Positions 26,673 to 29,162 of a stretch of DNA of 64,000 nucleotides are shown here, piece by piece; the first letter of the stretch is position 1; each line of letters starts with the position of its first letter. Both the position numbers and the translations under genes were made by a program. The notes beneath the pieces are model-generated. The model did no database searches. It was given only the letters and a program-made list of their open reading frames with translations, and was not told the origin of the DNA. Origin of the DNA: Micropterix aruncella (lineage: Eukaryota; Arthropoda; Insecta; Lepidoptera; Micropterigidae). The DNA is taken from contig OX155967.1 in NCBI GenBank assembly GCA_944548615.1, positions 434,001 to 498,000 on the forward strand, in the 5' to 3' direction.

Positions 26673-29162
26673 AATTGAAGGGCTGAAATTCTAAAGGGTC
26701 TAAGTGCCAAAAAATCTCAAACCGATATTTTCACGGAAATACAATCAATGTGCCAAGCCCAATGTCGTATAAAAGAGTCTAAGTGTCTAACTCCGCCCCA
26801 CTACTACACACAAGCTGTTAAAGCAAGGAGCGGGTCTATGTTCCACTATGCGTGTGCATCGGAAAGGCGAGTGTGTGTGCTCTGGCGCAAGCTGCGACCG
26901 GTACGCGGCGGCGCCGTCTTTTCTATCGTTCAGTGGCAATTAACAAGTTTATGGAGATGGACGTTACGCCGGTGCCTTCGACTTCAGACACACATGTTGC
27001 GAAAAATCGGAAAGAGAATGTGAAAATTCAACGGAAGAAGCGTCGTTTGTGCGGGGAGGAGTATATAACATCAAAAAAGATTAAAATTCCAAAGAAAACG
27101 CTGAAAGAGGTTAGTATTATTTTTTAATAATCATTATTTAATAACTTACAGTTGCGTAGCATCGTTGGGCAAATATACGCGACGTTTCGTCTGTTAGTAA
27201 TTAAATAATGTAAGGTGGTTTTCATTCACTGGATAATGTGCTTCTATTTAAAAACTATATTATTATTTCAGGTTGCCTGCAAGTGTAAATTTCATTGTGG
27301 GCAAATTTTACACGAGAGGAGAGAAACCCTTATGATGGAATACTATAGAATTGGAGACGCTATTAAGCAAGGAACATATCTTCTCGGGCTCATTCAAATA
27401 ACTCCAGTTGGAAGAAGGCGACACGGTACATACACCAACGCTGTAGACAGTCGCAGACAAACATCAGTAGCTTATACTCTGCCAGACGGTACTGGGAACC
27501 ATGTCCAGGTATGCCGTCAGACTTTTCAAGCTGTTTTTGCCATTTCGCATAAGAAAGTCCAGACTTTGGTGGAAAAAAAGAAGCGCGGAGAAGTGATTTT
27601 CATAGACAAGCGGGGATCCGGAAACAAGCCCAGAAAATTCACTGCTGAAATTTTCGAGATAGTACTGCATCATATTAAGTCTTTCCCTTCTCAAGAAAGT
27701 CACTACAGTCGACATGAAACTCAAAAATATTATTTAAGCCCCGATCTTAATATTCACCGTTTATACCTGGCATTCAAAGAAAAATACCCAGACTCGCCTG
27801 TGACCTACAGATATTACTTTACAACCTTCAAAAAGCATTTTCCCTATTTGAAGTTTGGACGCCCACGAACAGATACCTGTTCAAAGTGTGATCTTCTTCA
27901 TGCTAAACTGAAATGCTCTGAAGGAAGACAAAAAACTCATACTGCTATCGAGCTAGAAAACCATCACCGTAAAGCTGAAAGTGCTCAAAATACAATGAAA
28001 GCGGATTCGGTAAAATCCCAATCCCCAACGAGCGATACGTTGACAATGGCTATGGACATGCAACAAGTCATTTTTATACCGACATTGACTCATAGTCAGA
28101 TGTTTTATAGCAGACAGCTCTCGTGTTACAACCTTTGCGTTCATATTGCTGACAACCAAAAAGCATACATGTGCCTCTGGAATGAATCATATGCCGGAAG
28201 AGGAGGTAATGAAGTTGGTTCTTCACTGTTGAAGGTTTTAATATAATGTCTGCCAATACTTTAAAAAAAAAAATAGTAATTTGGAGCGACAACTGCATAG
28301 GCCAGAATAAAAACCGGATGGTGTTATTTATTCTTATTTATTTAGTTGCCAATGGCGTGTTCGATATCATAGATCATAAATACTTGGTCAGTGGCCACTC
28401 TTTCATGTCATGTGATCGTGACTTTGCACAGATAGAACAGAGAAAAAAAGTGGTCAAATGCTATGAACCTGCAGATATCGAAAAAATGATACGTGAATCG
28501 TGTCACAAAAACCCATTCGAACCTATAACACTGGACCAACATGATTTTAAAGACCTCAATGAAGCCTCCACGGAGTTCCTGAATACAACAAAATTGAAAA
28601 TATCAACTGTGTCATGGATAAGAATCCAGAAAAACCGGCTACCATATGTTGATTTAATGCAATCTTTCAATGATCCTATACCTTGGGACACCATCAACAT
28701 TTTTAAAAAGGGAAAAATGCCCTCTCAACTGAAGGATATGGTACTTCCAATATTGCCTGCCAAGAATAACATATCAAAAGAAAAACTAATTGACCTAAAA
28801 CAGATGATGCCGTATATACCTGCTGAACACCAACCATTTTATGATGATTTGATCAATAAAACAGAAGCTTGATAATACACATTTTAAAGGACTGTTGTCA
28901 TGTCACTTAGACCCTTTTTATTATTATTCAGTTACCTACATAGGACATTTCAGGACTTTGGAACTTTAATACTTTTTCTTTAAATATTTGTTGGTGTGAG
29001 AGGTTGGCGGCGGAGTCTCATGACTAAGAATATAATTTTCTTTGTATTTCAATTGAAATAAATAATAATTTCGACAAAATGTTTGTTTTATTCAGTTTTT
29101 TTGTTATATCTCGACTTTAACTTTTTGGCACTTAGACCCTTTAGAATTTCAGCCCTTCAATT
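26673..29162 (+). mobile_element. DUF7869-type DNA transposon (26677-29158), TSD AATT
   Basis: Terminal inverted repeats begin GAAGGGCTGAAATTCTAAAG and match for about 37 bp (26677-26713 against the complement ending at 29158). AATT lies at 26673-26676 and 29159-29162. Removing the element and one AATT leaves an uninterrupted LINE RT codon series across the junction, so this is an exact empty-site reconstruction. The interior holds a two-exon transposase-like gene with one frameshift. Total length is 2482 bp. Confidence 0.92.
26951..28872 (+). pseudogene. DUF7869-type transposase-like gene, two exons, one frameshift
   Basis: Exon 1 runs from ATG 26951 to 27109 (53 codons, basic C-terminus). 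A GTTAGT donor at 27110 and a TTATTTCAG acceptor ending at 27271 bound a 162 bp intron. Exon 2 opens with a Cys-rich CKCKFHC segment, then FAISHKKVQTLVEKKKRG, HHIKSFPSQESHYSRH, FGRPRTDTCSKCDLLHAKL (likely zinc-binding), DMQQVIFIPTLTHSQMFYSR, NEVGSSLLK. A one-base loss near 28230-28245 shifts the frame into 28246-28872, which carries WSDNCIGQNKN and GHSFMSCDRDFAQIE. Apart from that shift the gene looks intact. The catalytic role of the D/E/H positions is inferred from TIR context. Confidence 0.75.

Follow-up and report, generated by a model that had tools for sequence, protein, structure and literature searches.

A young DUF7869 transposon family of Micropterix aruncella with a predicted DDD transposase and Sola-like features

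The element, its copies and its target sites

The DNA considered here, referred to as the window, is a stretch of 64,000 nucleotides from the lepidopteran Micropterix aruncella (assembly GCA_944548615.1, contig OX155967.1, positions 434,001 to 498,000 of the forward strand), and the subject is a DNA transposon in it, named family A, whose sole predicted protein carries the domain DUF7869. The window copy occupies positions 26677-29158 on the plus strand (2482 bp; the commonest length in the family is 2483 bp, in 37/49 copies). Its termini, GAAGGG..CCCTTC, belong to perfect 37-bp terminal inverted repeats (TIRs) at 26677-26713 (plus strand) and 29122-29158 (minus strand), and a target duplication AATT, to which no strand is assigned, lies on either side (26673-26676 and 29159-29162). 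The inner TIR motif recurs at 26772-26787 (plus strand, 2/16 mismatches) and 28902-28917 (minus strand, 1/16 mismatches), i.e., two interior matches against 0.014 expected after shuffling, and these subterminal repeats are putative transposase binding sites. An earlier sequence-only reading had described a 2482-bp element with TIRs of about 37 bp beginning with GAA and with AATT on both sides, and its coordinates were exact.

When the flanks are joined with a single AATT, an open frame of 203 amino acids results. A search of the 1.08-Gb genome with the joined flanks (274 bases; 40 of 46 candidates scored) detected 15 other places that align across the junction over 1-274 or 2-274, with 85-98% identity and small indels; therefore, the empty site is present in sister copies of the host repeat. 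The earlier proposal of an empty site within the reverse transcriptase frame of a long interspersed nuclear element (LINE) was borne out as to the unbroken frame and the site. By motifs such as FRPISILPLFSKV, the host repeat resembles a LINE, that is, a non-long-terminal-repeat retrotransposon, a provisional label since Pfam returned no family for the joined frame or for four neighboring pieces.

The TIR-to-TIR search of the genome revealed further copies: 40 of 99 candidates were scored, and all 40 were copies at 100% (rounded identity), one of which is split up by an insertion. The copy L040 carries about 555 bp of inserted sequence. The end pattern, with at most two mismatches, was found at 88 forward and 87 reverse places, whereas the reversed control gave 0 in either orientation, which indicates that the pattern is not due to chance and that about 87 copies exist in the genome. 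The first places listed all had 0 mismatches; most formed pairs at a distance of about 2.45 kb, and a few stood farther apart or had no partner. Closely spaced pairs, the mark of a short derivative, were absent among them.

Target choice was read from 60 loci drawn from the best-scoring candidates, of which 49 distinct copies remained after L044 (family C) was dropped and 10 repeats of the same copies were removed. All 49 copies have identical ends and an exact 4-bp duplication, namely AATT (41), AACT (3), AAAT (2), ATTT (1), AGTT (1), and ATAT (1), and every target has the form A-N-N-T. The seven non-palindromic duplications show that the bases were truly duplicated and not merely mirrored. 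The letters fit two readings alike, a 4-bp duplication with GAA..TTC ends or a 2-bp duplication with TGAA..TTCA ends, and both predict identical filled and empty sites. AATT as a part of the element was rejected, because other A--T duplications occur among the copies. Thus, the AATT duplication that the earlier reading had deduced is strongly preferred within a general A--T rule and is not the sole form, while its 4-bp length and the ends were the same in every copy. The mobility which that reading had attributed to the protein family is likewise supported: young copies with shared ends were inserted with duplication, and their empty sites persist in sister repeats.

The DUF7869 gene and its predicted product

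The DUF7869 gene provides the longest frame in the element. In the majority sequence of family A, it is predicted to encode a protein of 586 amino acids in two exons separated by a 162-bp GT-AG intron. On the plus strand of the window, the predicted exon 1 (53 codons, basic, with presumptive start and donor) spans 26951-27109, the sequence-predicted intron 27110-27271, and the predicted exon 2, comprising a zinc-knuckle region and the DDD (three-aspartate) catalytic domain, 27272-28872. Exon 2 is split here by a one-base deletion near 28240 that is absent in the other 39 of the 40 aligned copies. The earlier model of two exons and one frameshift is therefore kept for its exons, as a prediction, and the frameshift is rejected as a feature of the gene, being private to the window copy. 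Judged by its letters, this copy is unable to make the whole protein and has intact ends; such broken copies could in principle be moved by the protein of a sister copy. The full frame is retained under the same splice in 38/49 copies, while four end at 387 amino acids and seven end elsewhere or have a changed motif. A one-base-shorter A-run is common to 4/40 aligned copies (L022, L023, L034, and L038) and may mark a subfamily or stem from an assembly error in the homopolymer. The shorter run interrupts the frame at one and the same position in these four copies, and the 219-amino-acid rows of the genome scan with PF25273 were assigned to it by frame length only.

The window protein matches Pfam family PF25273 (DUF7869) with 59.9 bits (cut-off 26, E=3.2e-16), so the name given in the earlier reading was correct, and 78/78 aligned homologues match the same family at E <= 0.1. 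The description of the Pfam entry states no function. NCBIfam returned 0 families for two DUF7869 proteins; of the sequence-profile searches of PDB, one gave 0 matches and the other returned two unrelated chains with weak scores (best E 0.018), and a fold search of BFVD gave no match at E <= 0.001. Structural modeling predicted an RNase H-like fold for DUF7869. The comparison with RNase H-like transposases that the earlier reading had suggested was positive: the best matches are of the DDE type and include Tc1/mariner transposases (Mos1, SETMAR) and the retroviral-type integrase core. Foldseek rows for MutS, NurA, and acetyl-CoA carboxylase were set aside as low-probability matches with no evident relation.

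The predicted core contains three invariant aspartates, which are presumed to be catalytic: D268 of P0001 on the first strand of the fold (codon 28055-28057), D346 in the DNCxGQNKN motif (28288-28290), and D388 in the GHSxxxxD motif (28414-28416), all on the plus strand. E395 was rejected as the third catalytic residue, since it is not conserved in bacterial homologues and is K in the family D protein.

Family A is almost certainly a recently active cut-and-paste DNA transposon, with DUF7869 as its DDD transposase. The basic, zinc-knuckled N-terminal part would bind the 37-bp ends and the two subterminal repeats, and, to judge from the fold, the RNase H-like core with D268, D346, and D388 would excise the element by double-strand cuts. 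The fold and the duplications suggest that the ends would then be joined to the two strands of the A-N-N-T target a few bases apart, and gap repair would yield the 4-bp duplication that is observed.

Related elements in the genome and in bacteria

The genome scan with PF25273 scored 150 of 1316 candidates, and 150/150 were above the cut-off. Four DUF7869 families (A, B, C, and D) obey the same terminal rule, with ends GAA..TTC. Family D is represented in the window by a second DUF7869 transposon (32474-35375, plus strand, 2902 bp, GAATCG..CGATTC), which is flanked by AATT at 32470-32473 and 35376-35379 and has a frame at 33397-34857; 14 full-length copies including this one, with 98-100% identity, were found among the 40 candidates scored out of 204. 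Families B and C rest on three and four loci, respectively, from a longer list of PF25273 matches: the duplications in the three family B loci fetched are ACAT, ATAT, and ACAT, and the five ends in the four family C loci are all flanked by A--T. For L067 and L068, no ends could be located. Another small transposon, 850 bp long and bounded by perfect inverted repeats of 33 bp, is inserted in a family C copy (L064:206-1056).

A third DUF7869 locus in the window, with approximate ends at about 7707-11452, lies between 41-bp inverted repeats and matches PF25273 on 8766-9521 (E=2.5e-11). It contains a repeat of about 970 bp (about 2629-3596 of the query; window about 10329-11296) that was matched at 37 other listed places. 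The repeat is missing from two sister copies of the locus, which align over the junction with an overlap of 4 bases, and it hence appears to have been inserted with a duplication of 4 bp.

DUF7869 is also present in bacteria. A scan of prokaryote genomes detected 11 loci (L070-L080), including those of Desulfocicer vacuolatum DSM 3385 and Thiomargarita nelsonii, and the four bacterial proteins tested all match PF25273 (E 5e-14 to 5e-23); NCBIfam gave two chance-level matches and no meaningful model for these four. A profile search with eight bacterial proteins found 835 proteins (7997 candidates scored). In six bacterial loci, inverted ends GGG or GGC surround the gene in elements of 2044-2339 bp, which probably constitute an unnamed group of insertion sequences. 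Their flanks are A--T in 12/12 cases, and exact duplications were found in 3/6 loci (L070, ATTT; L074, AAAT; L075, AATT), with unequal flanks in L071, L076, and L077; the addition of L073, read by eye (ATAT/ATTT), gives 3/7. In L070, only a part of the gene, 310 amino acids long, is open. The Desulfocicer element is single-copy, and PF25273 was found in 1/198 genomes of its phylum, namely the seed genome only, which suggests that the bacterial form is uncommon in that phylum. The protein profile gave 31 pattern hits and 0 relatives in viral contigs, the TIR search of these contigs gave 0, and the search of plasmids with the Desulfocicer protein also gave 0.

Classification and meaning

The Sola superfamily and its Sola2 group were reportedly described by Bao et al. 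in 2009. Sola, along with Academ and KDZ, was among the candidates of the sequence-only reading, and the features printed for its Sola2 group agree with those of family A. By its likeness to printed descriptions, family A can probably be placed in the Sola superfamily, and there most likely in the Sola2 group. Sola transposons encode DDD transposases, produce 4-bp duplications, and also occur in bacteria, with TIRs of 11-1124 bp and a length of 2-9 kb for most (PMC10741241); the duplications of the Sola2 elements in Dictyostelium fasciculatum and Polysphondylium pallidum are AWWT (PMC3627910). Family A resembles the superfamily in its predicted DDD core, its 4-bp duplication in 49/49 copies (subject to the 4-bp/2-bp ambiguity), its 37-bp TIRs, and its length of 2482 bp. 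It resembles Sola2 in its AT-rich A--T duplications and in the occurrence of bacterial as well as animal hosts. AWWT accounts for 45/49 family A duplications, while 4/49 are ANNT but not AWWT. The differences are that the protein has 586 amino acids, compared with 888 for the dictyostelid transposase (PMC3627910), that the TIRs are 37 bp and not 12-21 bp, and that AACT and AGTT are also duplicated, plus ACAT in 2/3 family B copies.

Other superfamilies were compared as well. The duplication of piggyBac and Kolobok is TTAA; both were rejected, since TTAA is duplicated in 0/49 copies. Tc1/mariner transposases are shorter than the family A protein. They share the RNase H-like core, but their duplication is TA (PMC10045372), and the bases duplicated here are not TA on either reading, with the exception of one copy on the 2-bp reading, inside an AT tract; moreover, Pfam gave no mariner match for two exon 2 pieces. 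Retroviral-type integrases are likewise among the best structural matches, and Ginger elements also make 4-bp duplications (Ginger2 also 5-bp; PMC10045372), but the third residue is read as D here and not E. For the 78 members, 25 of 29 Pfam families were listed, and none of these was a retroviral- or Gypsy-type integrase core.

Several observations count against the interpretation as a Sola-like transposon or in favor of a rival reading. Within the library covered, the literature search found no paper with DUF7869 and none joining the Sola superfamily, a domain of unknown function and transposase, no protein listed by the homologue searches was named Sola, and the dictyostelid enzyme is longer. 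Furthermore, since the bacterial flanks are all A--T and AT-rich, the 3/6 exact duplications do not exceed the expectation from base composition. The window copy has a broken frame yet intact ends, and the copies are of very high identity. The lack of a link in the papers and the longer dictyostelid enzyme would suit a DDD superfamily of its own across animals and bacteria, with Sola2-like target choice by convergence. This is unlikely, because DDD residues, AT-rich 4-bp A--T duplications, TIRs, and bacterial presence all match what is printed of Sola and Sola2. We also regard as doubtful the broader version, in which a separate DDD superfamily comprises animal transposons (GAA..TTC) and bacterial insertion sequences (GGG..CCC, with no NCBIfam name) under a strict A-N-N-T rule and family A is a very recent arrival in this host. 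That the element is moved by the transposase of another family, with the DUF7869 gene as a passenger, would agree with the broken frame and intact ends, but is very improbable given that this gene is the largest frame, that its predicted fold is of the DDE type, and that four DUF7869 families share the terminal rule. The high identity could be ascribed to segmental duplication or assembly artefact, to which we give practically no credence, as it is refuted by flanks that differ between copies, each with its own exact duplication, and by ends on many contigs.

Family A appears to fall within a transposon group that is known but has received little study. Its copies are young and numerous, many of them with intact frames, its ends are defined to the base, and its choice of target follows a simple rule; it therefore opens to direct experiments the chemistry of Sola-like transposases, for which no relative of solved structure emerged from the sequence searches. 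In the bacterial relatives, a simpler system is at hand, and they may link bacterial insertion sequences to animal transposons. The homologue searches gave 273 and 118 database proteins, which, where named at all, are called DUF7869, hypothetical or uncharacterised; in all likelihood, proteins so filed are transposases or their remains, and naming DUF7869 proteins as such would clean many gene sets.
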